DNA of 64,000 nucleotides. Source: Pseudomonas purpurea (GTDB lineage: Bacteria; Pseudomonadota; Gammaproteobacteria; Pseudomonadales; Pseudomonadaceae). Location: NCBI RefSeq assembly GCF_039908635.1, contig NZ_CP150918.1, positions 496,001 through 560,000 of the forward strand, read 5' to 3'. The number at the start of each line of letters is the position of its first letter. Within the stretch, counting starts at the first letter, position 1. The notes under the pieces were generated by a model that searched no databases, was not told where the DNA came from, and worked only from the letters and a program-made list of their open reading frames with translations. The translations under genes were made by a program, and so were the position numbers. Shown here piece after piece: positions 1,700-48,489 of this stretch.

Positions 1700-2602
1700 A
1701 TGGAATTGCGTCATCTGCGCTACTTCATTGCGGTGGCCGAAGAACTGCACTTTGGTCGCGCCGCACAGGTGCTGGGCATCTCTCAACCGCCGCTGAGCCA
1801 GCAGATTCAGGCGCTGGAGCAGGAAGTCGGCGCACGGTTGTTCGAGCGCACCAATCGTCGGGTCGAGCTCAGCGAGGCCGGTCGACTGTTTCTGGAGGAA
1901 GCGCGGCTGGTGCTGGCGCAGGTCGACAAAGCCGCCGATGTCGCCCGCCGTGCGCAATTGGGCGAGCTGGGTGAATTGAAGATCGGCTTCACTTCGTCGG
2001 CGCCGTTCAACTCGACCATCCCGCAAGCCATTTTTGCCTTTCGCCAGCGTTTCCCGGCGGTGCATTTGAACCTGCGGGAGATGAGCAGCACCCAGGTCGC
2101 CGAGGCGCTGGTGGATGAGTCGATTCAGGTCGGGATCATGCGGCCGTTGCCGCTGCCGGATTCGCTGGCCGTGGTCGAGCTGACCCGTGAGCCGCTGGTG
2201 GCGGTGCTCAGCTCCAAGGACCCGCTGGTGGTGGGCAGCGAGGAGGGGCTGTTTCTATCGGCGCTGGCCCTTGAGCCGTTCGTGTTTTTTCCGCGCAGCT
2301 ACGGCAGTGGTCTGTACGCGCAACTGTTGAGCCTGGCGCGTGACGCCGGGTTCAGTCCGCACTTCAGCCAGGAAGCCGGGGAGGCCATGACCATCATCGG
2401 CCTGGTGGCGGCCGGGCTGGGGGTTTCGGTGCTGCCGGCCTCCTACCAGCGCATGCGCATCGACGGCGTGGTCTACCGCCCGTTGCTGGACCCTGAAGCC
2501 GTGTCCGCCGTGTGGCTGGTACAGCGAAAAGACCAGGCCTCGCCGATGGCCAAGGCGTTTGTCGAGTTGCTGACGCGCAAGGTTGAACCGGTAAAGGCGT
2601 AA
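1700..2602 (+). CDS. LysR-family transcriptional regulator
   Basis: A 300-residue protein of normal LysR length. Residues 1-60 form the winged helix-turn-helix (MELRHLRYFIAVAEELHFGRAA, then SQPPLSQQIQALE), and the rest is the effector-binding periplasmic-binding-protein-like domain. The start GTTTTCATGG is the only good in-frame ATG before the HTH. It is divergently transcribed from the MFS exporter and probably controls it, and perhaps itself. A strong intrinsic terminator follows the stop codon. The inducer is unknown. Confidence 0.9.
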   Translation: MELRHLRYFIAVAEELHFGRAAQVLGISQPPLSQQIQALEQEVGARLFERTNRRVELSEAGRLFLEEARLVLAQVDKAADVARRAQLGELGELKIGFTSSAPFNSTIPQAIFAFRQRFPAVHLNLREMSSTQVAEALVDESIQVGIMRPLPLPDSLAVVELTREPLVAVLSSKDPLVVGSEEGLFLSALALEPFVFFPRSYGSGLYAQLLSLARDAGFSPHFSQEAGEAMTIIGLVAAGLGVSVLPASYQRMRIDGVVYRPLLDPEAVSAVWLVQRKDQASPMAKAFVELLTRKVEPVKA

Positions 2603-2649: not shown

Positions 2650-2904
2650 CTACGCCGAAATCTGTGCCTGCAATCGTCGCCCGACGACATCCATCAAATC
2701 GCAGCCGTCGCGCAATGAAGTCACTAGCACCCGCGCCAGCTCACTGTAAATGCCCTCGCTCGACGCGAAATTCTCCAGCAATTGGGTCGCGGTGCGGATG
2801 CGGTAGGCCGCCGTTTCGTGCAACACGTCCAAGGGCGCCTCGGTGTCGATCAACAATGATGCGATGGTGCAGTCGATACCGGTGATAGGCATGTACCGTT
2901 CCAT
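2650..2904 (-). CDS. Small Pseudomonas hypothetical protein
   Basis: An 84-residue acidic, mainly helical protein with no membrane segment or recognised domain. The start is supported by GGAGG nine bases upstream of the first ATG. A second in-frame ATG four codons later is less well placed. It is 34 bases downstream of a DUF6124 gene in the same direction, so the two are probably cotranscribed. Its length and helical pattern (ETAAYRIRTATQLLENFASS) resemble the DUF3077/DUF6124 group of short Pseudomonas proteins, but I do not assign a domain. The function is unknown. Confidence 0.6.
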   Translation of the reverse strand: MERYMPITGIDCTIASLLIDTEAPLDVLHETAAYRIRTATQLLENFASSEGIYSELARVLVTSLRDGCDLMDVVGRRLQAQISA

Positions 2905-2938
2905 GACAAAACCTCCATTCGGTAAAAGAGCGCGACCC

Positions 2939-3307
2939 TCAGTGATTGCAGTTGGGCTGAACCTCAGGCAACCCGTCGGGCGGGTCCAGGTTGTCCAGCG
3001 CCCGGTTTACCAACAACTCGGCCAGCATGGCCAACTGTTGAATGGCCAGCGCTACATTGCGGCGCGAGCCTTCAAGTTCGCAGGCGAAGTCGGTGGTCAT
3101 GACATTGAGCGAGGCCAGTGTTTCACAGGCGTGACAGAGCAGGGATTCGGTGTCGACATTCGGGATGATCGTGAAAACGTGGCTGACCGGGTCGGGGCGG
3201 CCCGGATTGCGCAGGCGAGCGCTGACGGTGCGTTCGGCGGCGGAGAGTTTGGATAAATCGACGGTGTCGACGGGTGAATTCGAGGAATTGGGAGTGATCT
3301 TTTTCAT
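2939..3307 (-). CDS. DUF6124 family protein
   Basis: A 122-residue small soluble protein. The middle and C-terminal parts (VFTIIPNVDTESLLCHACE, then NVALAIQQLAMLAELLVNRALD) match the pattern I associate with DUF6124, a family abundant in Pseudomonas with no established function. The start has a good ribosome binding site (AAGGAG, 8 bases away). It forms a likely two-gene operon with the downstream 84-residue gene. The 5' flank is the AT-rich gap before the XRE gene. Confidence 0.65.
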   Translation of the reverse strand: MKKITPNSSNSPVDTVDLSKLSAAERTVSARLRNPGRPDPVSHVFTIIPNVDTESLLCHACETLASLNVMTTDFACELEGSRRNVALAIQQLAMLAELLVNRALDNLDPPDGLPEVQPNCNH

Positions 3308-3768
3308 GATGGAACTCCTTGCGCGGTTTAATTAAAGTGCAAGTTCCCTGCGCTCAGTTGGGAACTTGGTCGACCACTGTACGCGGGTTGCTGGAGTGGT
3401 AAAGTGATTAATAAAAATTTGTCTTGTTTAATCAGGTAAGTGAACAATTGCATAATTAATTGATTAATATATGAATGTCTGTGGGCTGCCTGGATCGATC
3501 CATAGCATATAAAAACATGCGGTGCTGGTCATCAGCAGACTGCACGTCCATAAACCATCCGGGCTTCCTTGTTTCTGTAGGAAGTTTCATTAAATAAACA
3601 ATTTTCAGGGCTGTGAAACATCATCTAACGGTTGCTCGGGATGGCTGCAGTATTATTTTTGTGCAAAATCTACAGGTGTAGGATGCTTACCTCGCAAGGA
3701 CGCGCCATCATAGGTATTCAGCTCTGGTGTGCAGTTTGTTGAAGCTGTCAGCAAATGGTAAATGTGTA
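3308..3768. other. AT-rich intergenic region
   Basis: About 460 bases separate the divergent DUF6124 and XRE-type genes. The sequence becomes markedly AT-rich from about 3,400 and stays so through the next three genes. I see no gene, no RNA gene and no clear terminator. It must hold the divergent promoters, but no convincing -35/-10 pair was selected. Confidence 0.5.
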
Positions 3769-4368
3769 ATGCATAAAAAAGAGAAAGCAGAAAATCTGAA
3801 AAATAACATTAAGTATTTAATAAAAAGTCGTGGAGAGACGCAACTGTCCTTGTGTAACTCTAGTGGTTTGACCAGAACGACTATCTACAACATCCTGGAA
3901 GGAAGGGTCATCAATGTACAACAATCCACCATCCGCAAAATATCCGATTTTTTTGGTGTGTCCTATAAAGAAATAGAGACGGTTGATTTTGAAGAGAAAG
4001 AAATAATAGAGAGTAGTGTTTCCCTGCAGGGGAATATGAATCCAGCTGCGGTCCCTATTATTAAAGAGAGTTTGCTGATTCAGAGCCTGGATAAAAGAAT
4101 TGGCGAGTTATCCACGATCTATCCTCTGACCTATTATTTTGGCCTGGCCTGCAATTTAATAGCGGTGCTGCTAGAAAATGAAATGAGTGGGGTGAATGAG
4201 CCAGGAGACCTATTGATAGTGAAAAAAGGTTTGTCGCTTAGCGATAAAGAAAAGCTGGCGTACGACAAAACAACAAAAAAACTATTTGTAACCAATGAGT
4301 CTTTATTTGATTCTGATGTTGTTTGTGTTGTGGGGGAAATAATAGAGGAAAGATTTAATGGTCAATAG
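3769..4368 (+). CDS. XRE-type helix-turn-helix regulator with LexA/S24-like tail
   Basis: About 199 residues. Residues 10-65 form a Cro/C1-type helix-turn-helix (ETQLSLCNSSGLTRTTIYNI, then STIRKISDFFGVSYKEIE). The C-terminal 60 residues (EPGDLLIVKKGLSLSD, ending VVCVVGEIIEERF) resemble the beta fold of S24/LexA-type repressors, without an evident Ser-Lys autocleavage pair. The ATG at 3769 is chosen because homology starts right after it, although no strong Shine-Dalgarno is visible. A GTG at 3727 is the alternative. The gene overlaps the transporter gene by 11 bases, so the two are coupled. Codon use is AT-rich, unlike the neighbourhood, which suggests acquisition. It probably regulates its own operon and perhaps queC. 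Confidence 0.75.
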   Translation: MHKKEKAENLKNNIKYLIKSRGETQLSLCNSSGLTRTTIYNILEGRVINVQQSTIRKISDFFGVSYKEIETVDFEEKEIIESSVSLQGNMNPAAVPIIKESLLIQSLDKRIGELSTIYPLTYYFGLACNLIAVLLENEMSGVNEPGDLLIVKKGLSLSDKEKLAYDKTTKKLFVTNESLFDSDVVCVVGEIIEERFNGQ

Positions 4369-5236
4369 TGGCGAGGTTGAAAATAGTAAGTACAAGCTAT
4401 TGGGGTTTGAGAATAGTAAAAGCCTTGCCGTAATCATGGTCATTTCCACAGGAAAAATTATTAAAGTAAAGCTAAGTGAGCTGTTGAGAAGCGAGATATT
4501 AGATGATTTAAATAAGGCAGAAATAAAGGATGTGTACAGGAAGTTTTATTCTCGTGGAACTGCGGTGACCGCGTACGAAATAAATGATCGTCATGAGCGG
4601 CCATGGATGATTTATGTTGTACTCAATTTGCTGTTGTTTGTGCTGTACATTTTTGCAAATGTTGCTGCGACAAAACCTATTTATATAGAATATTTTGATG
4701 TTGTTGTTACTTCTGGTGTTTTTCTTTATTCGTTGACGTTTTTAATTGTTGATTTGTTGAATGAGTTTTATGGTCTCAGGCTTGCAAGGAGAGCCATATT
4801 ATTTGTTTTTTTGGGTAATGTTCTCATTACTGTTTTGCTCGGCATCTCGACCTATCTTCCAGGGTTGCCTGGCTGGAAACTTGATGCGCCCTATAATGAG
4901 ATTATTGGTCATGTATCGTCTGTATTGGTAGCCTCATCTGTCTCTTTTCTTTTTTCTGAATATGTTAATTCTTATTTGTTGTGCAAGATAAGGGAGCTTA
5001 CAAGTTCTAGATTTCTGTTTTTGCGGGTATTTTTCAGCACTTGTTTTGCGGTGATCATAGATAGCTTTCTTTTTTGCTATATTGCTTTTTATGGCATTAT
5101 GCAAAGCAGCGATATCCTTAATATGGTTTATCTTCAGATAGCTATAAAAATGTGTTTCGCAGTTTTTAATATTTTTCCTGCCTACGGAGCAAGGTCATTA
5201 TTTAAAAAATATATAGTTGGAGCACAAGCTGCATAG
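4358..5236 (+). CDS. VUT/YhhQ-type queuosine-precursor transporter with N-terminal extension
   Basis: A 292-residue membrane protein. Residues 1-80 are a soluble extension of unknown function (GFENSKSLAVIMVISTGKII is its core). From about residue 85 there are six or so hydrophobic segments with VUT/YhhQ hallmarks: FANVAATKPI near the first segment, LIVDLLNEFYGLRLARRAI after the third, and SSVSFLFSEYVNSYLL. Family members import 7-deazaguanine precursors (preQ0/preQ1) of queuosine. The next gene, convergent, is queC, which makes preQ0, and this strengthens the assignment. The N-terminal extension is not part of the standard YhhQ protein of about 220 residues. AT-rich, acquired character. Confidence 0.8.
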   Translation: MVNSGEVENSKYKLLGFENSKSLAVIMVISTGKIIKVKLSELLRSEILDDLNKAEIKDVYRKFYSRGTAVTAYEINDRHERPWMIYVVLNLLLFVLYIFANVAATKPIYIEYFDVVVTSGVFLYSLTFLIVDLLNEFYGLRLARRAILFVFLGNVLITVLLGISTYLPGLPGWKLDAPYNEIIGHVSSVLVASSVSFLFSEYVNSYLLCKIRELTSSRFLFLRVFFSTCFAVIIDSFLFCYIAFYGIMQSSDILNMVYLQIAIKMCFAVFNIFPAYGARSLFKKYIVGAQAA

Positions 5237-5289
5237 GGCTAGGGGTGGCTTGCTGTTAATCGCCAATTCCCCCGCTGGTAGAGTGTATT

Positions 5290-5985
5290 TTATAATTCGA
5301 GTTTGAATTGTAGCCTGTTCATAACCTCTATTTTGTTCTCCAAGAACTCAGCCAATCCTTTTGCACGAAGATGACAAGCATCGCACTCAGCGCACCCACT
5401 GCCCTTTATGCCGTTGTAGCAAGTCAGTGTTTGGTAGCGAATCAAGTCCAGTTGTTTGTGGTAGTCGGCCAAGGCCCAGGTCTCTGCCTTATCCAGCCGC
5501 ATAAGCGGCGTTTCAATGCGCAACTTATAGTCCATGCCCAATTCGACAGCGTTATTCAGTACTTTAGTGAACTCATCGCCGCAATCAGGATAGCCAGAGC
5601 ACTCTGTTTCAGAAATGCCGGTGATGATAGTTTTAGCGCGCACTTGATAGGCATAAATAGAAGCCAAGGTCAAAAACAGAATGTTTCTGCCGGGGACGAA
5701 AGTGTTTGGCACACCTTCACCGGAACTATTCGTGCTGGGGACTGGAATGTTGTCGCGGGTCAAGCTGCTGATGGCCAACTCGTTTAGCAATGAAGTGTCC
5801 AGTACCTTGTGCACGTTCACGCCCAGTTGTTTGGAAAGCTGTTGTGCCACTTCAATTTCCGCGCGATGGCGCTGACCATAGTCAAACGTAATGCAGTGGA
5901 TTTCATCGTAGAGCGGTAATGCATGGATCAAACAGGTGGTCGAGTCTTGTCCGCCACTGAAAACGATCACGGCTTTGTTATGCAT
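5290..5985 (-). CDS. queC: 7-cyano-7-deazaguanine synthase
   Basis: A 231-residue enzyme of full QueC length that converts 7-carboxy-7-deazaguanine to preQ0 with ATP and ammonia, in the queuosine pathway. The PP-loop SGGQDSTT is at residues 10-17. The zinc site cysteines are C189, C198, C201 and C204. [20 protein letters not shown] is the conserved core. It reads much closer to the E. coli type ([24 protein letters not shown]) than to the QueC I associate with the Pseudomonas housekeeping locus (LLSGGLDSAT). It may therefore be a second, transferred copy. It is convergent with the VUT transporter, 53 bases apart, and forms with it a queuosine-precursor islet. Confidence 0.92.
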
Positions 5986-6466: not shown

Positions 6467-6913
6467 TTACTGAACCTTCGACAGGTTCCCGCGCAACGCA
6501 ACACCGGCCATCACCGCACCTGCGTGGCATTCATAGGTCTTGGCATCCTTGCGCTCGTTGCTTTTGTAGAAGCTGGCGATGTCGGTCACCGCGTTGGCAC
6601 CGACTTTTTTCGCGGCTTGATGCAGGGTGATCAGGGCCGACTGCAAGGCCCATTCGCAGGCCACTTCATCGGATTTGTTGAAGGCGTTGGTTTTCTTGTT
6701 GGTCACCGCGTTCGGGCTGATCACGGTCATGTTGCCGGCCGGTTTGGTGCCGGCCAGGTAGAACTTCACGCTACCGTCGATTTTGCCGGTGCTGATGGCT
6801 TCAGCCACGACTTTGTCGAACGGCAGAAACAGTTGGGTATCACGGGCCTGGCTGACGCTTGGCAGGGTGCAAAGCAACAGGGTGGCGGCAGCAGCGAGTT
6901 TCTTGAAGGGCAT
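6467..6913 (-). CDS. Secreted small protein at 3' end of APE operon
   Basis: A 148-residue protein with a clear signal peptide (MPFKKLAAAATLLLCTLPSV, then SQA before the mature RDTQLF). The mature part of about 125 residues has an alternating beta/helix pattern with two cysteines, one in EVACEWALQ and one in KTYECHAG, which may form a disulfide. Such proteins are sometimes mis-annotated as excinuclease ATPase subunits. The fold recalls YbjQ/RcsF-like domains, but this is tentative. It follows the lipoprotein gene by 33 bases at the downstream end of the APE operon, so an envelope role linked to the polyene lipid is plausible. Confidence 0.6.
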   Translation of the reverse strand: MPFKKLAAAATLLLCTLPSVSQARDTQLFLPFDKVVAEAISTGKIDGSVKFYLAGTKPAGNMTVISPNAVTNKKTNAFNKSDEVACEWALQSALITLHQAAKKVGANAVTDIASFYKSNERKDAKTYECHAGAVMAGVALRGNLSKVQ

Positions 6914-6946: not shown

Positions 6947-7384
6947 TTATTGGGCCGCCGCTGGGGCTGTGGATAACTGTTGGGCAGTCTGCTCAATTTG
7001 AGTGTTTTTCAACCGGCTCAGGATCCCGCGGTCCAGCAGGCGCACCCAGCGGATGTAGTTCTTGTGGATCTTGCCGTCCTTGTAATCAAGCTCACGGCTG
7101 TCGCGGTAGACGATCTTGTAGTGCGTCGGGGCGTACTCGATGTCGATCTCGGCGTGGTACTTGTTGCGCACGGTAATCTCGGCCTGGATCACGTCCGGGC
7201 TGACCCGCTGCACGGTCCACTTGCGTGCGACCAGGGTCTTGAGGATTGCCTGTTTCATGTGCTCCTGATCGACCTGCACGGTCGCCGGAACGATGCGGGT
7301 CGGGGAGTACATGCGTTTGCTGGTGCATGAAACGGTGGTCAGCAGAGCCAGGACAATCAGTGTTGCGCGAAGCAGGGAAGACAT
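6947..7384 (-). CDS. Putative lipoprotein, APE operon
   Basis: 145 residues. The N-terminus has a short hydrophobic stretch ending in a lipobox-like TVSC, so the protein is probably lipidated at C20. The mature domain (SPDVIQAEITVRNKYHAEID, then YAPTHYKIVYRDS) is beta-rich. The function is unknown. GGAG precedes the start. It was probably once directly downstream of the ketosynthase gene: the upstream flank is the duplicated ketosynthase 3' end, and beyond that lies the 3.5-kb insert. Confidence 0.65.
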   Translation of the reverse strand: MSSLLRATLIVLALLTTVSCTSKRMYSPTRIVPATVQVDQEHMKQAILKTLVARKWTVQRVSPDVIQAEITVRNKYHAEIDIEYAPTHYKIVYRDSRELDYKDGKIHKNYIRWVRLLDRGILSRLKNTQIEQTAQQLSTAPAAAQ

Positions 7385-7413: not shown

Positions 7414-7617
7414 TTACGGCCAGCGGCGGAAAATCAGCGAGGTGTTGACGCCGCCAAAGGCAAAGTTGTTGTTCATCACGTACTGGTTGCTCATCTGGCG
7501 GAACTCGCCGCGCAGGTAGTCCAGTTCACCGCAACGCGGGTCGACTTCGTCGAGGTTGAAGGTGTGCACGTACAGGTCGCTGTTCAGCATTTCGATGCTG
7601 AACCAGGACTCCAGCGC
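7414..7617 (-). pseudogene. 3' fragment of ketosynthase gene (duplicated)
   Basis: These bases encode the last 67 residues of a ketosynthase and its stop codon (ALESWFSIEM... FAFGGVNTSLIFRRWP). They appear identical to the end of the full gene at 11125-12351. The fragment lacks the active-site Cys and both His residues, so it is not an enzyme. It is the copy still attached to the original downstream genes. It is the left boundary of the insert. Confidence 0.9.
7414..7617. repeat. Left direct repeat flanking the insert
   Basis: About 204 bases are repeated without a difference that I can find at 11125-11328, in the same orientation, 3,711 bases apart. The repeat begins exactly at the ketosynthase stop codon (TTA on the plus strand) and ends at CCAGCGC. 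Identity at this level suggests a recent event. Confidence 0.9.
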
Positions 7618-7692
7618 TTCTGGTGCCGAGAGCTGCACTCAGATTTTACGAGGTAATGAATCCCGCAGCGTGGCATCCGTCAGGATATCTTT

Positions 7693-7971
7693 TTAGCGGC
7701 TCACGCGCATGCCCGCCGGATCTTGTGCGGTTCTTGGCCTCCATAGTTGAAAGCTTCGGCTCCATACCACTGACTCAGCAGTCAGTGCTTTAAAGGCTTC
7801 GAGTATTGGCTTCTTTACGGCCCAGTTTCCATGGCGATTTTGGTACACATGAGCTTCGCCGAACATCAGACGGATCTCCCGTGCGGCGAGAGCTTGCGGC
7901 AAATAGTCTTGTTTGCGGTATTCGGCCACCATCCATTGGGCGATGCACATGTCTTCATCTGTCCAAGTCAT
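7693..7971 (-). CDS. DUF6953-like small protein
   Basis: 92 residues from the ATG at 7971, which has AGGA nine bases upstream. A GTG at 8004 overlapping the ferredoxin stop is the alternative. The sequence pattern (IAQWMVAEYRKQDYLPQ, FGEAHVYQNRHGNWAVKK, ESVVWSRSFQLWRPR) fits the DUF6953 family as I know it, a small soluble domain of unknown role. It is the last gene of the four-gene minus-strand operon in the insert. The family assignment is from memory and should be treated as probable. Confidence 0.6.
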   Translation of the reverse strand: MTWTDEDMCIAQWMVAEYRKQDYLPQALAAREIRLMFGEAHVYQNRHGNWAVKKPILEAFKALTAESVVWSRSFQLWRPRTAQDPAGMRVSR

Positions 7972-8000
7972 GGCGTGGATTCCTGCTGAAGCCCCTTGGT

Positions 8001-8312
8001 TCACAATTGCTGGTCGGGGTGGAAGAGGTGTTGATCGATAATGTGTTCAACCTGTTGTGGCGTCTCGCACGAGAACCACAGGTTAGCTGGGTAAATCACC
8101 ATGACCGGGCCGTGGTCGCAGCGACCTAGGCAGTCCGATGCGTTGGCGCGCGATGTTCCCGGTTCCCCCAATTTGGCGATCTTGCGTTTTGCGGCGCTGA
8201 GCAGTTCGTGAGCGCCTGAGCCCGAGCAACTACGGCGACCATCGGGGCGCAGGTTTGTGCAAATCAGCACATGGAGTTCGTAGGCCAGGGTCGGATTTTC
8301 TACGTCATTCAT
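8001..8312 (-). CDS. Thioredoxin-fold [2Fe-2S] ferredoxin
   Basis: A 103-residue protein. Cysteines C18, C29, C61 and C65 have the spacing C-x10-C ... C-x3-C, as in thioredoxin-like [2Fe-2S] ferredoxins (the CbiW or NuoE-like group). The contexts are HVLICTNLRPDGRRSC and DCLGRCDHGPVMVIYP. It would be a one-electron carrier. It follows the EamA gene by 19 bases and precedes the DUF6953 gene. Its presence beside a diiron enzyme suggests that it supplies electrons to that enzyme, which is an inference. Confidence 0.8.
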   Translation of the reverse strand: MNDVENPTLAYELHVLICTNLRPDGRRSCSGSGAHELLSAAKRKIAKLGEPGTSRANASDCLGRCDHGPVMVIYPANLWFSCETPQQVEHIIDQHLFHPDQQL

Positions 8313-8331
8313 AGGTGGTCACGACCTCTGT

Positions 8332-9229
8332 TCAAACTTTGTCGGCAGGAACTGCGGCTTTCGATGGTTCCAGATTGAGCGCGAGTACGCTTGTCAGCAC
8401 GATGCCTGTTCCTACGATGACCATGGCAGAAGGGCGTTCACTCAGAACCAACGAGGCCATCAACATTGCTGTGGGGGGGATCAGGTAAAGCGAAATGGAC
8501 GCGCGACTCACGTTGCTCTGCGCCAGCACGTATGCCCAAGCGAGATACGCAAGGGCGCTGGGAAAAATGCCCAGAATGAGCACCGCAAGGTTGACCGAAG
8601 TTGAGGCATTTTGCACTTCGCTCCAAAGGCCCGGGGCATATACAAGCAGCAGTAACGTGCCCGACCAAATGGTGTAACACACCATCGTCAGCCCGTCGTA
8701 ACGATGGGCATGGTGTTTTTGCAAGGCGAAATACAGACTCCATGAAAATGCAGCCAGCAGGATCAGCAGCCCGTGCGCGTCCAGCTCACCCAACCCACGG
8801 TCCCCGGTGACTACCACAGCGGCGCCGAGTAGGGCCGCATAGCACACAGATCCATTGCCAGCCGTTGACCCGATCCTTGAACGCGAAATGTGCCAATAAC
8901 GTGCTGAACAGCGGCGTGGATTGTGCCAGTACGCTGGCGGCCCCAGCGCTAACACCTCGTTGACCGTAGTTGAGGGCTATGTGATGCAGGCTGACGGCAA
9001 AGAGTCCCAGCACCACCAGCAGCGGCAGGTCTTCCAGGCGAGGCAAGGAAATTCGCATCACCAATGCAATCCCGGCCATGAACGTTGAGGCGATGAGAAA
9101 TCGCATCAGCGCAAGATGACCAGGCTCATAAGCCTTTAGCCCGATGTGGATTCCAATGGGGGAATAGGCCCAGCAGAGAATTACAAAAATCGCCGCCAAA
9201 GCGATTTTTACGCTGGGCCTTGTATTCAT
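8332..9229 (-). pseudogene. EamA/DMT-family exporter, frameshifted as read
   Basis: Two overlapping frames together give a normal roughly 298-residue ten-segment EamA permease. The N-terminal half (CWAYSPIGIHIGLKAYEPGH onward) runs to about 8,842, and the C-terminal half (AALLGAAVVVTGDRGLGELD onward) continues in another frame to 8332. Removing one base near 8842 restores WICVYAALLGAAVV. The start ATG at 9229 overlaps the stop of the diiron enzyme gene. EamA proteins export amino acids and small metabolites, so it may export the product of the diiron enzyme. Either a real recent mutation or a sequencing error is possible. Confidence 0.8.
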
Positions 9230-9999
9230 CAAATCGTCGTCCTGGACGTAGCACGATTTTGTACGCTGGGCATGGCATGGGCTATGCCGTTCCAGTACTG
9301 CTCGGTGATGGCCAGGAAGCGGTTGAACGAAGTGCTGACTTCCTCTATGTGCTGGTCAGTTGTGCATTCCTGGGTGGCAGCTTTCACTGCCTGGATCTTG
9401 TGTTCTTTTTCCGCATCGCCGATGTGGATGTAGAAATACTCGCAGTGTTCATGAAAGTCGTCGTTATTGGCATACAAGTGCTTATAGTTGCGGGCCCCTT
9501 CGTACAAGCGGGTGAGCATCGAATAGGCCAGCCACTCCTGAGCCAACAACGTACCGAGCACATGGCGCGGATTGTTGTTGTGGCCACCGTCGGTGTAAAG
9601 ACTCAATTGTTCGCGACTAAACGTGTGGGTACTTTCCAACACAGGCAAAGCCATGAGTTCGTCCATGCTGTATGGCCGATCAGCGAGCCGGCTGAGAAGG
9701 TCGATCAGATAACTTTCCAGAAGGGCGAGGTGGGCCTTTTCCGGGTTGCCGTAGCCCATTTCGGAGTACAGGTTTTTGACGATTTCGACTTGAGCGTATA
9801 GGTCTTCAGTGCCCACAAATGACAGGGCAACCATACGAGAGGTTTGCGTGGTACGGGCTAGGTAATTTCGAGCAAACACCTCAACGTCGGCTAGGGGGAG
9901 TGGGTCAGCCATCCACCGTCGGTAGAACTCGTTATTCAAGGCTTTATGGGGGAACACACTTTCGGCGAGGTAATGTATTTTTCGCTCAACTAACTCCAT
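9229..9999 (-). CDS. Haem-oxygenase-like diiron enzyme (CADD/BesC-like)
   Basis: 256 residues, all helical, of the iron-containing redox enzyme (Haem_oxygenas_2/TenA-like) superfamily. Candidate metal ligands are E80 and H90 in SEMGYGNPEKAH, E155 in LLAQEWLAYS, and the cluster H192...E197/H200 in YIHIGDAEKEH. The GNPEKAH spacing recalls BesC and related enzymes that cleave or oxidise amino acids or fatty acids using O2. It has a good AGGAG site and is the first gene of the insert operon, coupled to the EamA gene. The LysR gene is divergent. The substrate is unknown. It does not look like UndA or PqqC proper. Confidence 0.75.
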   Translation of the reverse strand: MELVERKIHYLAESVFPHKALNNEFYRRWMADPLPLADVEVFARNYLARTTQTSRMVALSFVGTEDLYAQVEIVKNLYSEMGYGNPEKAHLALLESYLIDLLSRLADRPYSMDELMALPVLESTHTFSREQLSLYTDGGHNNNPRHVLGTLLAQEWLAYSMLTRLYEGARNYKHLYANNDDFHEHCEYFYIHIGDAEKEHKIQAVKAATQECTTDQHIEEVSTSFNRFLAITEQYWNGIAHAMPSVQNRATSRTTI

Positions 10000-10083
10000 A
10001 AAAACTCCTACTCATCGAGGGATATGAAAGGGCGACGGCGTCACTGCAATGTGCGCGGGTTGAAGTATCAAAAACATGCAGGT

Positions 10084-10129
10084 TCACTACAAGTGACTTA
10101 AACTGATCCGAGAATTCACTCTGGGTGAA
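10084..10129. promoter_or_regulatory. Paired dyads in the LysR/diiron-enzyme divergent promoter
   Basis: The 132-base divergent region contains two inverted repeats, TCACT-ACA-AGTGA (10084-10096) and TTCAC-N5-GTGAA (10115-10129). They share the half-site TCAC/GTGA. Two spaced related dyads next to a LysR gene are typical of its recognition and activation sites. The second ends two bases before the LysR start codon, compatible with autorepression. Confidence 0.45.
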
Positions 10130-10131
10130 CA

Positions 10132-11046
10132 ATGGAATTGTCTCAACTGCGCATGTTCAAGACGGTTTACGACTTCGGCAGCATCGCGCGCGCCGCTGAG
10201 TTGTTGCACTGCGTGCCGTCCAATATCACAGCACGCCTCAAGTCCCTGGAGCGGGAGCTCGGCACACCGCTGTTTTTCCGTGACGGTCGAGGGTTGCGGA
10301 TCACTCCTGCTGGGGAGGTATTTCTTGATTACGCAGCGAGAATCCTGGGTTTGGCTGATGAAGCCAAGCGTGCGGTAGCGCCCAGCGATACGCCTGGCGG
10401 CCCTCTGCGCATTGGCGCTATCGAGTCTAGTGCTACGGGGCGACTGCCTCGGCTATTGGCCAAGTACCATGCGCTGTACCCGCAGGTGTCTCTGGAGTTG
10501 AGCACTGGCACTTGGGCTCAGTTGCTGGACGATACTCAGGGTCACCGACTTGATGGAGTGATCGTGGCGGTGAACATTGAACGCCCCGGTCTCAAGAGCG
10601 CAGTGGTGTACCGGGAAGATTTAATTCTCATCGCGTCCTCGTCCCATGGGCCTTTACGCAAGGCAGCGGATCTGCAAGGTAAGGATATTTTCATGTGGCC
10701 ATCGGGCTGTCCGTACCGCTTCGCGCTGGAGCAGTGGCTATTGCGCCATGACCAAGTGCTGCCGATCGTCAGCATCGCAAGTTACGGCACCATAGTTGGT
10801 TGTGTCAGTGCCGGTGCCGGCGTTTCGCTGGTGCCCCGTGGTATCTATGAGCAATACCGCCACAGTGCGGGTTGGCAGGGGTATGAATTCCCGGAGCTGA
10901 CGAGTATCGACAACCTGTTTTACTGGCATGAAAACTCAGGTCGACACCCAGCTCGGGAAGCGTTTTTGGCGCTACTGCAGACAGAGTTCGAGGGCTCAGC
11001 GGCGTTGGAAGGAGGCGCTCGTGCGCCTCAGGTAGAACCAGACTGA
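10132..11046 (+). CDS. LysR-family regulator of the insert module
   Basis: 304 residues. The N-terminal winged HTH is seen in MELSQLRMFKTVYDFGSIAR, followed by CVPSNITARLKSLERELGTP, and a full effector-binding domain follows. The HTH recognition segment (VPSNITARLKSLE) is of the PtrR/YbhD-like type. It is transcribed away from the diiron-enzyme operon over 132 bases with two dyads between, so it most likely controls that operon. It ends 78 bases before the repeat copy at 11125 and is convergent with the intact ketosynthase gene. Confidence 0.85.
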   Translation: MELSQLRMFKTVYDFGSIARAAELLHCVPSNITARLKSLERELGTPLFFRDGRGLRITPAGEVFLDYAARILGLADEAKRAVAPSDTPGGPLRIGAIESSATGRLPRLLAKYHALYPQVSLELSTGTWAQLLDDTQGHRLDGVIVAVNIERPGLKSAVVYREDLILIASSSHGPLRKAADLQGKDIFMWPSGCPYRFALEQWLLRHDQVLPIVSIASYGTIVGCVSAGAGVSLVPRGIYEQYRHSAGWQGYEFPELTSIDNLFYWHENSGRHPAREAFLALLQTEFEGSAALEGGARAPQVEPD

Positions 11047-11124
11047 TTACTGCACTTTTCACCAGATTCCCTTCAACGCAACGTGGCCATAATCGTCCAA
11101 TATCCTTGACCTTGAAGTTTTAAG

Positions 11125-11328
11125 TTACGGCCAGCGGCGGAAAATCAGCGAGGTGTTGACGCCGCCAAAGGCAAAGTTGTTGTTCATCACGTACTGGTTG
11201 CTCATCTGGCGGAACTCGCCGCGCAGGTAGTCCAGTTCACCGCAACGCGGGTCGACTTCGTCGAGGTTGAAGGTGTGCACGTACAGGTCGCTGTTCAGCA
11301 TTTCGATGCTGAACCAGGACTCCAGCGC
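11125..11328. repeat. Right direct repeat flanking the insert
   Basis: This is the second copy of the 204-bp segment and forms the native 3' end of the intact ketosynthase gene. The flanking base before the stop codon differs from the left copy (G here, C there). The repeat edge therefore coincides with the end of the coding sequence. Confidence 0.9.
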
Positions 11329-12351
11329 ACCACAGGCGCCGAGGGTATGGCCCAGGAAACTCTTCTGCGAACTGATGGGCATGCGGCTGCCGAACAGGCT
11401 GCTGGTGGCCAGGGTTTCAGCGATATCGCCCTGCTCGGTGGCGGTGCCGTGACCGTTCACGTAGCCGATGGCCGAGGCTTCAATACCGGCGTCTTCGAGC
11501 GCCAGCTCCATGGCCCGGCGCATGGTGACCTGCTCCGGACGGGTGGTGTGCTGGCCGTCGGCGTTGCTGCCGAAACCGACGATTTCGGCGTGGATGTGCG
11601 CACCGCGTGCCAGGGCGTGTTCGAGTTCTTCGAGCACCAGCATGCCGCCGCCTTCACCGATCACCAGGCCATCGCGGCCACTGTCGTAAGGGCGCGGGCT
11701 GGTTTGCGGGGCGTCGTTTTTCAGGCTGGTGGCGTAGAGCGCGTCGAACACCATGGCTTCGGTCGGGCACAGCTCTTCGGCGCCGCCTGCGAGCATCAAC
11801 GGTAGGCGCCCGAACTTGATCGCTTCATAGGCGTAACCGATGCCCTGACTGCCGCTGGTGCAGGCGCTGGACGTCGGGATCAGCCGCCCGGTAAGGCCAA
11901 AGAAAATGCTGATGTTGGCCGCGGTGGTGTGGGGCATCATCCGCACATAGGAGTTGGCGTTCAGGCCCTCGGCCACCGAGTTGAGCAGCATGTTGCCGAA
12001 GGCTTTGATCTCGTCGGTGCTACCGGTGGAGGAGCCGCACGCAACGCCCATCCGGCCATCCTTGATCGACTCGTCGCCCAGCAGGCCGGCGTCGGCCAGG
12101 GCTTGCTCCGCCGCCGCCACGGCCAGACGGGAAACCCGGCCCATGCTGCGCAATTGCTTGCGGGTCCAGTGGCTGGGGACCTTGAAGTCATCGATGGGGC
12201 CGGCCAGCCGAGTGTTCAACTCGGTGAAGCGGTCCCACTCGTCCATGCGCCGGATGCCGCTGCGATTGGCCTTGAAATTGCCCGAGATGGTTTCCCAGTC
12301 GCTGCCCAGCGAGGTGATGCCGGCCATGCCGGTGACGACGACGCGCTTCAT
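11125..12351 (-). CDS. Beta-ketoacyl-ACP synthase (FabF type), aryl polyene
   Basis: 408 residues, a condensing enzyme that extends the ACP-bound polyene chain with malonyl-ACP. The catalytic triad is complete: C164 in SSACTSGSQG, H301 in NGHGTATEQGD and H335 in SFLGHTLGACG, with K330 nearby. The start ATG overlaps the stop of the ketoreductase gene by one base, so an upstream in-frame ATG-like start is rejected. In aryl polyene clusters this gene pairs with the ketoreductase and dehydratase. Its 3' end is the target duplicated by the insert, but the reading frame is intact. Confidence 0.92.
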   Translation of the reverse strand: MKRVVVTGMAGITSLGSDWETISGNFKANRSGIRRMDEWDRFTELNTRLAGPIDDFKVPSHWTRKQLRSMGRVSRLAVAAAEQALADAGLLGDESIKDGRMGVACGSSTGSTDEIKAFGNMLLNSVAEGLNANSYVRMMPHTTAANISIFFGLTGRLIPTSSACTSGSQGIGYAYEAIKFGRLPLMLAGGAEELCPTEAMVFDALYATSLKNDAPQTSPRPYDSGRDGLVIGEGGGMLVLEELEHALARGAHIHAEIVGFGSNADGQHTTRPEQVTMRRAMELALEDAGIEASAIGYVNGHGTATEQGDIAETLATSSLFGSRMPISSQKSFLGHTLGACGALESWFSIEMLNSDLYVHTFNLDEVDPRCGELDYLRGEFRQMSNQYVMNNNFAFGGVNTSLIFRRWP

Positions 12352-13079
12352 CAGCACAGGCCTCCATTAACGGCCAATACCTGGCGGGTGATATAGGCCG
12401 CTTCCGCGGACATCAGGAAATTCACGGCGCCGGCCACCTCTTCAGGGGTGCCCATGCGTTGTGCGGGGATCATTTTCATCAGCTCTTCCACCGGCACGTT
12501 TTCGTCGAGCATCGCTGTGTCGATCAACCCTGGCGCGACGCAGTTGACGGTGATCTTGCGTTTGCCCAGTTCGATGGCCAGGGCCTTGGCGGCGCCGATC
12601 AGCCCGGCCTTGGAAGCGCTGTAGTTGACCTGCCCACGGTTGCCGATCAGCCCGGACACCGAGGTGATGCACACGATCCGCCCGGCGGCGCGACGCCGAA
12701 TCATCGGCATCATCACCGGGTGCAGCACGTTGTAGAAACCGTCCAGATTAGTGCGCATCACCACGTCCCAATCATCCTCGCTCAGGGCCGGAAAAGCACC
12801 GTCGCGGGTCAGGCCGGCGTTGAGCACCACGCCGTAATAGGCGCCGTTGGTTTCAACGTCGGCCTCAAGGATGGCCTTGCAACTGGCGCGATCCGACACG
12901 TCGAATTGCAGGATGCGAGCACTGCGGCCCAGCACCTGAACCTCGGCCTGCACGGCTTCGGCGTCGCTGCGGCCGCTGCGGCAGTGCAGCACCAGGTCAA
13001 ACCCGGCCTGGGCCAGACGTAAAGCGATGGCGCGGCCGATACCACGGCTGGAGCCGGTGACCAGTACGGATTCAGTCAT
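12351..13079 (-). CDS. fabG: 3-oxoacyl-ACP reductase, aryl polyene
   Basis: A 242-residue short-chain dehydrogenase that reduces the beta-keto group after each condensation, using NADPH. The Rossmann motif TGSSRGIG is at residues 8-15 and the structural LNAG at 86-89. The catalytic residues are N111, S140, Y153 and K157 (YSASK). Length and motifs are those of FabG. It overlaps the dehydratase gene by 8 bases upstream and the ketosynthase by one base downstream. It is a pathway-specific paralogue, not the housekeeping FabG. Confidence 0.93.
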   Translation of the reverse strand: MTESVLVTGSSRGIGRAIALRLAQAGFDLVLHCRSGRSDAEAVQAEVQVLGRSARILQFDVSDRASCKAILEADVETNGAYYGVVLNAGLTRDGAFPALSEDDWDVVMRTNLDGFYNVLHPVMMPMIRRRAAGRIVCITSVSGLIGNRGQVNYSASKAGLIGAAKALAIELGKRKITVNCVAPGLIDTAMLDENVPVEELMKMIPAQRMGTPEEVAGAVNFLMSAEAAYITRQVLAVNGGLC

Positions 13080-37968: not shown

Positions 37969-38019
37969 ATCTTGAAAGACCGTATTATTCTCAGCCAGCA
38001 GGGCATGTTATTGGCTTCA

Positions 38020-39077
38020 TTAATCACTGTAGTTCACATGCTGAGCCATTAAGTTGGGGCGGGACAGGGTATCAATGGCGTCAATGCGCCCCAGCATTTC
38101 CTTGACCTTGGTCTTGAACGTTTCGTCGTCCATGTCGATCCAGTAACGGGATTGGCGTCCGCTGGCACGGTCGGCTTCGGCACTCACCGGGTCGAGATGG
38201 CGGTGGGGTTCATAGAGAGGCAGGTCCGGCAGTGGACGGCTGACATCCATGAAGTTCTGGAAAAAATCCCATAATGCGCAGGGCTTTTGCTCGGTGTTGT
38301 CAGGTGTGATCAGGCTATTGAAGTTAATGCGGATGTCCCGGTAACGATGAATCAAAAAAAGTCCGATCATGGGCAGGCCCTGGCGGTCCGGGGTCGTGAC
38401 GAGGTAGGCATCGAACTCGTAGAACGGTGCGATGTGTTCGCCGATGACTCCTGTTTTTTTGAAGTTTTTATAATCAAACACGGTAACCAGACCGGTACGA
38501 CGATTCAGCTCCCAAAGTGGACCTTTGGGTGGACGGAACCAAACTTTCGGGAAATAGTTAATGACGATATGCCCAACGCCCCAGCAGAACAAGGGGAGAA
38601 AAAAAATGGCCAAAATCCCATCATGAGTACTTCAAGGAAACCCAGCTTTATGTATGAGTCTCTTGATGCAATGTAGAGGCCTAGGCTAACAATTGTATAC
38701 AGAGGGGCGGCTATAAAAAATATACCTTTTCCCGCCGTGGCCAGATATATCCAGAGCTTTGAACTTATAGGGAGTTGAGCCAGACGAAAGCGCTCATGAT
38801 CATACTTTTGATGTAACTCGACGCCTTCAAATGTTGGCGGTACATAGGTGCCGTTGGCCTTTTTTTCTTCCTTTTCCTTTTTTACCTGCTCCCAAAAGCG
38901 CATGTCGTCGGGTGTCGGGTCTTCCATGATGCAGCTTGGGGCAACATCTTGAGTATTGCCCCAAGGCAGGCGCGTACCAGAAAATTTACTGAACCAACTG
39001 CGCTCCGCCGACTCCGCTTGATCGGGGATGTCGGCGGGGCAGTAAGTTGTAATTCCGTAATGAGAAGGCTTCGTCAA
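38020..39077 (-). pseudogene. DUF6708 paralogue, frameshifted as read
   Basis: The N-terminal half (SKFSGTRLPWGNTQDVAPSC) and the C-terminal half (FPKVWFRPPKGPLWELNRRT onward) lie in different frames. They meet at a run of eight A (38599-38606, T on the coding strand). One base more or two fewer restores WPFFFLPLFCWG, as in the intact neighbour. The start overlaps the neighbour stop as ATGA. The C-terminal 190 residues are nearly identical to the neighbour while the N-terminal 150 differ more, which suggests gene conversion. The shift may be slippage, true decay or a sequencing error. Confidence 0.75.
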
Positions 39078-40144
39078 TCGCTGTAGTCCACATGCTGAGC
39101 CATTAAGTTGGGGCGGGACAGGGTATCAATGGCGTCAATGCGCCCCAGCATTTCCTTGACCTTGGTCTTGAACGTTTCGTCGTCCATGTCGATCCAGTAA
39201 CGGGGTTGACGTCCGCTGGCTCGGTCGGCTTCGGCACTTACCGGGTCGAGATGGCGGTGGGGTTCATAGAGAGGCAGGTCTGGCAGTGGACGGCTGACAT
39301 CCATGAAATTCTGGAAAAAATCCCATAATGCGCAGGGCTTTTGCTCGGTGTTGTCAGGTGTGATCAGGCTATTGAAGTTGATGCGGATGTCCCGGTAACG
39401 ATGAATCAAAAAAAGTCCGATCATGGGCAGGCCCTGACGGTCCGGGGTCGTGACGAGATAGGCATCGAACTCGTAGAACGGTGCGATGTGCTCGCCGATG
39501 ACACCTGTTTTTTTGAAGTTTTTATAATCAAAGACGGTAACCAGGCCAGTACGACGATTCAGCTCCCAAAGTGGTCCTTTGGGTGGACGGAACCAAACTT
39601 TCGGGAAATAGCTAATGACGGTATGTCCAACGCCCCAGCAGAACAAGGGTAGAAACGTGAATGGCCAAAACCCAGACATGAACAGTTCAAAGAAGCCATA
39701 TTTTATGTCTGAACTTCTAGAGGCGATATGCATTCCTAGGCTAACTAGTGCATATAGCGGAGTCATTATGAAAAAAGTGATTTTTCCAACTATGGTTAAA
39801 TATAGCCATAGTTTTGAGCTTATTGGTAGTTGGGCCAGTCGAAAACGCTCGTGATCGAATTTTTGATGCAGGTTCACTCCGTCGAATGTTGGTTTTGTAT
39901 ATGTATTGCTTGCTTTTTCCTCTTCTGCTTTTTTTTTGGCCTGTTCCCAAAAGCGCATGTCATTGGGCGTGGGATCTTCCATGATGCAACGTGGGGCTAC
40001 ATTTTGAGTATTGCCCCAGGGTAGGCGTGTGCCAGAAAATGTATCTAACCAACTGCGTTTGACAGAGGTTGGTTGTTTTGGGACTCTTTCATGTTGGAAT
40101 GCATCATGTTCATAGTAAGTTAAAGCTTGGTTGATTTTATCCAT
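39074..40144 (-). CDS. DUF6708 membrane protein, probable immunity to adjacent effector
   Basis: 356 residues. An N-terminal soluble part (SGTRLPWGNTQNVAPRCIME) precedes two or three hydrophobic segments at about 118-145 and 155-190, and then the DUF6708 domain with FRPPKGPLWELNRRTGLVTV, PFYEFDAYLVTTPDRQGLPM and FFQNFMDVSRPLPDLPLYEP. Its start overlaps the effector stop (TAATG), so it is translated with the effector, as expected of a cognate immunity protein. It is the best candidate for that role. Confidence 0.72.
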   Translation of the reverse strand: MDKINQALTYYEHDAFQHERVPKQPTSVKRSWLDTFSGTRLPWGNTQNVAPRCIMEDPTPNDMRFWEQAKKKAEEEKASNTYTKPTFDGVNLHQKFDHERFRLAQLPISSKLWLYLTIVGKITFFIMTPLYALVSLGMHIASRSSDIKYGFFELFMSGFWPFTFLPLFCWGVGHTVISYFPKVWFRPPKGPLWELNRRTGLVTVFDYKNFKKTGVIGEHIAPFYEFDAYLVTTPDRQGLPMIGLFLIHRYRDIRINFNSLITPDNTEQKPCALWDFFQNFMDVSRPLPDLPLYEPHRHLDPVSAEADRASGRQPRYWIDMDDETFKTKVKEMLGRIDAIDTLSRPNLMAQHVDYSD

Positions 40145-46958: not shown

Positions 46959-47477
46959 TTAGCCAGCGACCGGGGAACGCCAGTCATCGGAACCCGAAGT
47001 ACCGGATACTTCGTGGGTCCAGGTGATTTTGCGGTAGGTGAAGTGCACGTCTTCCAGGTGGGTGAAGTGCGAGTTCGATGGGTCCTGGCAGTTGTGCATG
47101 TAGTCCTTGATGTCCACGATGATCGCGTCTTCAAGTTTGGTGGTGTAGTAGTGCTCTTGGGTGCCGGCAGCGGAGGTGCGGTACCACTTGATTTCGATAG
47201 TGGTCATGCGCTCGCCCGACGTCAGGGCAGCCAGCAACAGTGGGGAAGCCTTGTCGAAGACTTTGGTGATAACCACGGGTTTGTGAACGCGTTGGCCGGT
47301 GGGTTGGCCGGATTGCGGGTCACGCGGGATGATGACTTCGTGGCTGAAACCCTGAACCATGACCTGGTCTTCGTGACCTTCCTGGTAGGTGTTGCCAACG
47401 GAGTCTGCGGTGAAGGCGCCGGCGGTGATCAGGCCTTGTTTTTCGCCGGTGACGGACATATATGCTGGTGTTGCCAT
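46959..47477 (-). CDS. hcp: Type VI secretion tube protein Hcp (first copy)
   Basis: 172 residues from the ATG at 47477. Hcp family features: TPAYMSVTGEKQGLITAGAF, VMVQGFSHEVIIPRDPQSGQ, GQRVHKPVVITKVFDKASPL and the end TWTHEVSGTSGSDDWRSPV. Hcp hexamers form the T6SS tube and also chaperone small effectors. The gene has its own sigma-54-like promoter and three palindromes upstream. The hairpin separates it from vgrG. The second hcp is about 70% similar by eye. Confidence 0.95.
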   Translation of the reverse strand: MATPAYMSVTGEKQGLITAGAFTADSVGNTYQEGHEDQVMVQGFSHEVIIPRDPQSGQPTGQRVHKPVVITKVFDKASPLLLAALTSGERMTTIEIKWYRTSAAGTQEHYYTTKLEDAIIVDIKDYMHNCQDPSNSHFTHLEDVHFTYRKITWTHEVSGTSGSDDWRSPVAG

Positions 47478-47547
47478 GGATGCTCTCCTTGCTGACATAA
47501 ATGAGATAGCCCGGGGGCGAAATCGCCCGGTGGGTGATCTTTATGTA

Positions 47548-47562
47548 TCAAGGTTTGTGCCA
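47548..47562 (-). promoter_or_regulatory. Sigma-54-like promoter of hcp (first copy)
   Basis: On the minus strand TGGCAC-N5-TTGA matches the -24/-12 consensus TGGCACG-N4-TTGC. The exact string TGGCACAAACCTTGATA lies about 70 bases before the hcp start codon. The same layout occurs at the second hcp (TGGCATGGACCTTGATA), where the -12 part is identical. Confidence 0.7.
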
Positions 47563-47648
47563 TGTATAAAAAATACTATTTAAATCAAATAGTTATGCGT
47601 TAAAGGCGTAAGAGTTTGCCTTGTTGCGCGTAGGAAAGGTCGCCAAAG

Positions 47649-47770
47649 TGCGCAAGAAGTTGCGCAGTACTGCGCAAGAAGTTGCGCACTCGGCTACAGG
47701 TCAGGTGGGCCGTGGGCTGTAGGGGATTTACGAGCGGATTTCTGGAAACAAGTGCGCAAGAAGTTGCGCA
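47649..47770. promoter_or_regulatory. Three-site palindrome cluster upstream of hcp (first copy)
   Basis: Three 18-bp copies of TGCGCAA-GAAG-TTGCGCA occur at 47649-47666, 47671-47688 and 47753-47770. Each is a palindrome with a 4-base spacer. They lie about 90-210 bases upstream of the sigma-54-like promoter, the usual distance of enhancer sites for bacterial enhancer-binding proteins such as VasH or SfaR. Another group of three is present at the second hcp. The regulator is not in the window. Confidence 0.65.
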
Positions 47771-47885
47771 CTTGAGGTTTTGGCTTCGTGGGTGGGCGAA
47801 GGGATCGGCAGCGAGCGGGATGACGTTACGACGCGTTGCTCATCTGACTGATCCCTGCCGATGCCATCGAGATGAGCAATCGGTT

Positions 47886-48404: not shown

Positions 48405-48474
48405 GTGAGCTTTCCTTGCCTGATAAACCAAAAGCCCCCGGAGGTGAAATTGCCTCGGGAGTACCAGAGGGTTA

Positions 48475-48489
48475 TCAAGGTCCATGCCA
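48475..48489 (-). promoter_or_regulatory. Sigma-54-like promoter of hcp (second copy)
   Basis: On the minus strand TGGCAT-N5-TTGA, string TGGCATGGACCTTGATA, about 70 bases before the start codon. It is the counterpart of the promoter at 47548-47562. The match to the -24 consensus has one substitution (T for C at the sixth position). Confidence 0.65.

Follow-up and report, generated by a model that had tools for sequence, protein, structure and literature searches.

Accessory DNA often resides in hotspots with no visible integrase, and its route of entry is mostly inferred: how, then, does a multi-gene insert come to lie directly behind an intact biosynthetic gene, with a second copy of that gene's end on its far side? 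The question is raised by a 64-kb stretch of the Pseudomonas purpurea genome (hereafter, the window), in which a five-gene module separates a beta-ketoacyl-ACP synthase gene (KS; ACP, acyl carrier protein), the last gene of a fatty-acid-type biosynthetic operon putatively labelled the APE operon by an earlier reader, from a displaced duplicate of its own 3′ end (the KS tail). We consider it likely that the stretch behind KS is an insertion hotspot anchored by homology, where a cassette carrying its own KS-tail arm spreads, and is lost, through RecA recombination. Several species preserve evidence at this locus, in the form of junctions held in common, displaced gene tails, native flanks and conversion tracts, and a homology-arm mechanism thereby becomes testable.

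Two identical ketosynthase tails bracket a five-gene module

Base-by-base alignment of the two tails (7414–7617 and 11125–11328), which lie on the same strand, showed no difference over 204 bp, with identity ending abruptly on both sides, which bears out the perfect copies in the original prediction; their start at the KS stop codon is likewise borne out by the coordinates of KS (Table 1). The repeat is the fourth-longest direct-repeat family within the window. The 3507 bp between the copies (7618–11124), predicted as an insert of about 3.5 kb, carry five genes encoding a DUF6953 protein, a 2Fe-2S ferredoxin, an EamA-family exporter, a Haem_oxygenas_2 protein (a haem-oxygenase-like oxidase, HO) and a LysR regulator, and the module occurs once in its own genome. 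An assembly artefact, named beforehand as a possible undoing of the insertion reading, is unlikely, because the genome is a single contig and an identical order of KS, module and KS tail is seen in separately assembled genomes. It follows from the structure that RecA-dependent excision between the two copies would give back a normal operon, as had also been predicted.

No integrase or transposase was detected with Pfam among 19 window proteins, 14 of them spanning the interval from the LysR gene at the far border of the locus to KS, or among 11 proteins of its relatives; the prediction that none is visible thus holds for the proteins scanned, which do not cover every open reading frame. All five module genes were included in the scan, and none encodes a recombinase or transposase. 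We rejected a transposon or insertion sequence as the source, given a module that contains no transposase and is bounded by a 204-bp direct repeat of host gene sequence. Plasmid origin was rejected as well: among 72,556 plasmid records, 10 matched in part, none of them over 80% of the query, and the best covered 10%.

The arrangement recurs in other Pseudomonas genomes

A DNA search of 298 Pseudomonas genomes, including that of the window, recovered the whole module in two others, G058 (91% identity) and G150 (88%); G and L numbers denote genomes and loci throughout. A search with the oxidase gave matches at E 1e-30 or better in 8 of 398 genomes, namely the three just mentioned and five at 54–60% identity. 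A scan of GTDB genomes with the same protein returned 19 loci, including nine at 79–92% identity (L032–L039 and L043), three Pseudomonas loci at 60% (L040–L042) and one at 57% (L045). The original prediction had reasoned that a module present in all related genomes would speak against a recent integration; the whole module was found in only 2 of the 297 other Pseudomonas genomes and, between KS and the far border, in none of 80 further loci surveyed for the KS tail.

All nine closer relatives, each of them Pseudomonas, carry the module genes or parts of them behind KS, within approximately 5 kb; in L034 the module is placed further downstream, and L043 retains only the oxidase and a LysR piece. 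The prediction had also suggested looking for the module elsewhere with an adjoining KS 3′ end, and we found this in six other Pseudomonas carriers, so that 7 of the 10 carriers display the order KS, module, second KS tail (the window, L032, L033, L035, L037, L038 and L043). The second tails match KS over 247 bp at 96.4% in L032, 223 bp at 95.1% in L033, 221 bp at 85.5% in L035, 108 bp at 97.2% in L038, 34 bp at 94% in L037 and, behind the partial module of L043, 91 bp at 74.7%.

A shared junction and homogenised tails

One and the same junction between module and tail is common to the window, L032, L033, L035 and L037: it consists of ATCTGAGTGC followed directly by KS sequence from 222 bp before the stop codon. 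The distal tail of the window opens past this junction with 16 bp that differ from the intact KS by six mismatches and a two-base gap, and continues with 204 perfect bases. By simple arithmetic, tails that had diverged evenly at only 9% would be free of differences over 204 bp with a probability of 4e-9. Because the perfect bases abut a decayed remnant of the same tail, the two tails of the window must have recombined late, and the 204-bp identity dates their last exchange rather than the first insertion. L032 shows an exchange in the opposite direction, the DNA behind its intact KS being of the distal type past the stop codon; the L035 tail is identical over its first stretch and diverged over the remainder. 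Such edges show that the tails exchange sequence.

These observations bear on the explanation originally offered, namely a recent single-crossover (Campbell) integration of a circle bearing the module and a KS 3′ end, with the identical repeats taken as a sign of recency. The geometry fits, with an intact KS, an insert and an old tail still joined to old downstream genes, and so does the 204-bp identity. However, the same junction in four other loci, the presence of a decayed 16-bp stretch ahead of the perfect one, and tails elsewhere that differ by 3–25% contradict the claim that near identity marks a recent event. Moreover, unless conversion followed, the expected outcome of a single crossover between species is one tail from the donor and one from the recipient, not two identical ones. 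Since a single crossover between tails of different origin leaves them non-identical, two identical tails call for conversion or for an interchromatid exchange of the kind modelled for merodiploids (PMC3784515). We therefore regard a recent Campbell event as improbable, although it is the strongest of the alternatives. The insertion reading stands, and the dating of the insertion by repeat identity does not; a recent arrival of the module in the window lineage is possible. The general lesson is that perfect repeats should not be taken as a sign of recent insertion.

Native flanks behind the displaced tails and empty sites

For each of the 12 loci with a displaced tail, comprising seven module carriers and five module-free loci, the 200 bp that follow the distal tail were compared with the first 400 bp past the intact KS in 83 module-free loci (the 80 surveyed and L135–L137). 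The distal flank was colinear with module-free post-KS DNA in 7/7 module carriers and in 3/5 module-free tail carriers. The best matches linked the window to G073/L139 (83.5%), L033 to G046/L182 (94%), L035 and L037 to G049/L137 (79% and 88%), L038 to L175 (84%) and L043 to G215/L138 (96.5%), with L032 giving a weak match of only 20–32 bp. At the same time, a colinear match for the DNA directly behind the intact KS was lacking in 6 of the 7 module carriers, the exception being the converted L032, and in 2 of the 5 module-free loci with a tail.

The empty sites sought in relatives, that is, operons without the insert, were found in G046, G073 and G215. Positions 3505–4926 behind KS in L033 correspond to −221 to +1198 around the KS stop in G046 (1425 bp, 94.6%), positions 3508–4109 in the window to −203 to +396 in the module-free G073 (602 bp, 85.5%), and positions 5625–6192 in L043 to −90 to +476 in G215 (91.4%); positions 3537–3757 in L035 match −221 to −1 in G330 (78%). 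The colinearity of G073 with the window's distal tail and flank supports the predicted order of intact KS, insert, and old 3′ end joined to old downstream genes.

Despite one junction, the native flanks vary in type, with two genes that we label lip and G (Table 1) in one case and G2, QueC or a pyocin region in others. Because the flank types vary and the junction is constant, the pattern would be best explained by a module that moves together with its tail. In the window itself, the intact KS is followed by DNA of the KS-G type and the distal tail by DNA of the KS-lip-G type.

This last observation decided against an explanation that we had first favoured, an in-situ tandem duplication of KS tail, G and module with spare copies lost differently in each lineage. 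L039 would suit such a history, as a complete G gene precedes its module and the duplicated piece is not the KS tail but 46 bp of the G tail (compared with G083 and G232), and so would the G remnant before the module and the KS tail after it in other carriers. However, the proximal and distal flanks of the window belong to different versions of the locus, and the module is missing from the sister genomes G083, G215 and G049, so we dropped tandem duplication as quite unlikely. The G-tail arrangement of L039 is apparently a second, independent joint.

Module history conflicts with that of its hosts

The combined LysR and HO data rejected both the rpoB topology (approximately unbiased (AU) test, p = 1.2e-5, 9 taxa) and the KS topology (p = 1.8e-4, 8 taxa), and in the reverse tests the module topology was rejected by the rpoB data (p = 0.020) and the KS data (p = 1.9e-4). 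L043, with LysR lacking, was left out of these tests, as was L037, whose KS is cut by a contig end, from the KS test. Mean synonymous divergence (dS) across the 28 common pairs was 0.28 for LysR and 0.32 for HO, compared with 0.51 for KS and 0.53 for KR. Carriers were scattered over an rpoB tree of 27 genomes, with L039 sister to the module-free G083 (99.56% rpoB identity), L043 to G215 and L037 to G049, the latter two sisters also module-free. L033 shares 97.3% identity over the 258 bp of KS upstream of the tail with the module-free L208 and L153.

A single old insertion in a common ancestor of these Pseudomonas, followed by vertical descent and many losses through excision across the repeats, would account for the shared junction, and direct repeats would ease exact loss. 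The trees described above, a module dS averaging about half that of KS, and a whole module in only 2/297 other genomes leave this history with little probability.

Other cargo behind the same gene end

Of 398 Pseudomonas genomes, 315 contained the 222-bp KS end, and seven gave a second match (at most two were scored per genome). Two of these are the module carriers G000 and G058; three, G330, G128 and G049, are module-free with the copy approximately 3.4–3.7 kb from KS; and the remaining two, G040 and G174, have second matches distant from KS and were set aside as paralogues. Between KS and the displaced tail, G330 and G049 contain a queuosine cassette, and G128 contains FMN reductase, fatty-acid hydroxylase and AraC genes. 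Displaced tails were also present in 2 of the 80 further loci, which were chosen from the best matches to the window KS tail rather than at random, one of them (L158) being only 1.9 kb long: the interval from KS to the tail contains an S-pyocin and part of QueC in G362 (E 4e-20), and has no cargo assigned in G231 (E 9e-16). Of all 93 loci, carriers included, 15 gave plus-strand and 12 minus-strand matches at E 0.01, no minus-strand match falling below E 2e-4. Three weak matches were not counted as displaced tails: L155 (30 bp), L198 (18 bp, E 2e-4, on a par with the minus-strand control) and L202 (26 bp, E 4e-7, away from the KS end).

In L043, G049 and G362 the displaced tail is continued by native DNA, namely the KS-G spacer followed by the G gene. 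KS-tail lengths across the cargo types were 222, 172, 115, 105–106, 96–119 and 91 bp by BLAST, some of which may have been shortened by erosion. The far side of the interval is also conserved, with the same border LysR gene in 70 of the 80 surveyed loci at 141–6988 bp from KS. The queuosine cassette (2650–5985 in the window, where it forms a second cargo) is recurrent, QueC being present in 8/80 surveyed loci and lying directly behind KS in G330, G049 and L197. S-type pyocin genes lie between KS and the border LysR gene at L032:8738–9937, L034:3306–4671 and L038:8407–10057 (with an immunity gene), and in L171 and L183.

In gene-end targeting as it is known from e14-type prophages, which attach at the icd 3′ end, the 3′ end of the target is duplicated and the gene is preserved, and an integrase is needed. 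The present locus is similar in that a gene 3′ end is duplicated and the gene kept, and differs in that no integrase was found among the scanned proteins and the tail lengths vary. The remnant of a site-specific integrative element whose integrase has been lost would account for the target and the direct repeats at both ends, but we rejected it as the least probable of the alternatives, because the module and the scanned proteins of window and relatives include no recombinase and because a fixed core would give neither tail lengths that differ by cargo (to which erosion may contribute) nor the duplicated G tail of L039, which leaves no constant attachment core.

A proposed homology-anchored route of insertion and loss

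We propose that incoming DNA would pair with the conserved KS (once with the next gene, G) and so bring new cargo behind KS, its far end joining recipient DNA without homology inside or near the KS tail. The recipient's KS 3′ end would be pushed beyond the cargo, still joined to its old downstream genes, and would then often decay. Homologous pairing combined with a non-homologous far join would explain both the varied tail lengths and the intact KS. On the left side of the window module the intact KS runs into a flank foreign to the locus, and the module/tail junction joins unrelated sequences; we infer that the homologous and the non-homologous junction arose in one event. The cargo/tail junction of this module would have formed once, probably when an illegitimate join took place on one side only, 222 bp ahead of the KS stop. 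Because KS-tail sequence bounds both ends of the resulting cassette, RecA recombination could insert it into any Pseudomonas with this KS, whatever lies behind the gene, or delete it exactly, a step for which there is support. The 204-bp identity of the two tails in the window reflects a recent gene conversion or crossover between them.

More tentatively, and at somewhat less than even confidence, these loci may exemplify a class of integrase-free mobile cassettes, in which cargo and KS tail form the unit, the KS tail of any Pseudomonas bearing the operon is the landing site, and RecA both inserts and excises exactly. If so, the end of the operon would behave like a cassette array that changes slowly and through homology, and its displaced KS tails would record the cargoes that came before.

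Several observations weigh against the hotspot interpretation. The second KS tail is absent in 3 of the 10 carriers (L034, L036 and L039). The module-free tail cases are weaker, because the distal flanks of G330 and G231 had no colinear match among the 83 module-free loci and the proximal flanks of G330, G128 and G231 each gave one. The junction could have shifted within longer recombination tracts, with the downstream flank exchanged later. Mean rpoB dS, at 0.11, is below that of the module, a low value ascribed to rpoB codon bias, dS of genes varying with codon use; and in two close pairs KS and module dS are alike (L036–L038: KS 0.14, LysR 0.15, HO 0.13; L034–L039: KS 0.19, LysR 0.21, HO 0.27). 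Finally, patchy carriers alone cannot separate gains from losses, since precise excision leaves the same empty site, and some of the absence may be loss.

Relation to known displaced-end systems

In Vibrio cholerae type VI secretion system (T6SS) clusters, displaced effector/immunity modules have been explained by homology-facilitated illegitimate recombination (PMC5361080). The Pseudomonas locus resembles these arrays in its one-sided homology anchor, an older 3′ part orphaned downstream and several cargoes per site; for the arrays, too, no integrase is known, and they later move by homologous recombination (PMC5361080). Unlike in the T6SS arrays (PMC5361080), the anchor here is a biosynthetic KS that is kept whole, the displaced piece is the KS tail only, the window cargo is metabolic, and the cassette has KS-tail homology on both sides. 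An orphan KS end behind cargo, followed by native flank, was found in 10 of the 12 tail carriers (weakly in L032; G330 and G231 being unmatched). The toxin/immunity cargo with a functional displaced piece that is typical of Rhs and T6SS arrays was not found in the window, where the cargo is LysR, oxidase, EamA, ferredoxin and DUF6953 and the distal piece is a KS tail alone; pyocin cargo is present in some relatives.

Orphan rhs-CT in Salmonella comprises a displaced 3′ fragment with 522 bp at 95% identity to the main gene, with which it recombines (PMC3967940). The near-identical 3′ fragment has its counterpart here in 204–247 bp at 95–100% in the window, L032 and L033. However, orphan rhs-CT carries a different toxin end, and recombination yields a chimera (PMC3967940), whereas both tails of the present locus encode the same KS end, and recombination can therefore only insert, delete or homogenise.

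Homology-facilitated illegitimate recombination has been demonstrated in transformation of Acinetobacter, P. stutzeri and S. pneumoniae (PMC2884548, PMC3240628), and its homology-assisted form has been discussed as a source of variable segments (PMC2884548). The combination of a homologous join on one side with a non-homologous one on the other (PMC2884548) fits the varied tail lengths seen here. The transformation cases (PMC2884548, PMC3240628) are laboratory events; at the present locus only products are seen, seemingly spreading as defined cassettes. In S. pneumoniae merodiploids, donor DNA partly repeated in the chromosome gives rise to duplications of ~100 to 900 kb (PMC3784515), a scale unlike that found here. 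The likeness lies in repeat-anchored donor DNA producing duplication joints via chromatid pairing (PMC3784515), a process that could make both tails recipient-like. What sets the locus apart from known displaced-3′-end systems is the biosynthetic anchor gene, the metabolic cargo in the window and the homology at both cassette ends. In the open-licence literature searched, at the level of titles and opening parts of abstracts, we found no account of this locus, which is no proof of absence. The displaced 3′ end of an anchor gene offers a footprint that can be searched for genome-wide.

Module genes, predicted function and neighbouring features

Table 1. Features of the ketosynthase locus in window coordinates
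Feature	Position	Strand	Basis or remark
Far-border LysR gene, conserved far side of the hotspot	1700..2602	+	70/80 surveyed loci
Small gene, second cargo	2650-2904	-	No Pfam family
DUF6124, second cargo	2939-3307	-	
HTH (helix-turn-helix) gene, second cargo	3727-4368	+	
Queuosine precursor transporter, second cargo	4358-5236	+	
QueC, second (queuosine) cargo	5290-5985	-	
G, natively adjacent to KS or lip in many Pseudomonas	6467..6913	-	No Pfam family
lip, small putative lipoprotein gene	6947..7384	-	Native KS neighbour in G073 and others
Distal (displaced) KS tail, 204 bp identical to intact KS	7414..7617	-	Repeat alignment
Decayed extension of distal tail, up to module/tail junction (~7633/7634)	7618..7633	-	Against intact KS: 6 mismatches and 2-base gap
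DUF6953 protein	7693..8004	-	Pfam
Thioredoxin-like 2Fe-2S ferredoxin	8001..8312	-	23.2 bits, below Pfam cut-off of 24.8
EamA-family exporter, frame broken	8332..9232	-	Overlapping open reading frames 8332-8955 and 8786-9232
Predicted haem-oxygenase-like iron oxidase (HO)	9229..9999	-	Haem_oxygenas_2, Pfam PF14518, above cut-off
LysR regulator, divergent from the other module genes	10132..11046	+	Best NCBIfam match PtrR, below its cut-off
Module left flank: intergenic DNA and ~50 bp of G-type gene 3′ end	11047..11124	-	Same flank type in L033, L035, L036, L037, L038
Proximal KS tail, 204 bp, part of intact KS	11125..11328	-	Repeat alignment
KS (beta-ketoacyl-ACP synthase), intact, last gene of operon	11125..12357	-	NCBIfam NF006587, 727 bits, above cut-off

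LysR, oxidase and EamA genes also occur together, at 55–61% identity, in P. lundensis-type genomes (L040–L042, L089 and L090), where neither the ferredoxin nor DUF6953 was found by tblastn at E 1e-5 (L089 and L090 being only 3.7 kb long); because of this grouping, the three genes look like one unit. HO is a distant match (E 0.0038) to BesC, the 4-chloro-allylglycine synthase of structure 7twa, and related oxidases act on amino acids (PMC13185094). Judging from these similarities, the module would be expected to carry out oxidative cleavage or desaturation of an amino acid or a relative, with the ferredoxin as electron donor and EamA as exporter. EamA matches in a single frame in eight relatives (L032–L039) and is broken in the window, where the pathway may therefore be decaying. 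A scan for promoters and terminators gave sites no more numerous than in shuffles.

Other Pseudomonas loci (L053, L054 and L055) have homologues of EamA and LysR (80–86% amino acid identity) side by side without the oxidase, an arrangement from which the oxidase may have been inserted between the two. Within the interval itself, the queuosine cassette in L043 (1581–5398) is flanked by a 1-kb duplication (91%) that includes the cassette's HTH gene, and the oxidase of this locus sits between queuosine pieces and the KS tail as nested cargo. A second piece of the far-border LysR gene (74–78% similar) occurs between KS and that gene in L191, L194 and L216, perhaps as displaced pieces of the other border gene. 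Elsewhere in the window, direct repeats (97%/70%) approximately 1054 bp apart span 38013–39959, and the open reading frame at 38505–38927, perhaps another displaced gene end, resembles a partial copy of that at 39074–40144 (no Pfam family). Two tandem T6SS Hcp genes with stretches of 75–83% identity lie at 46959–48485.

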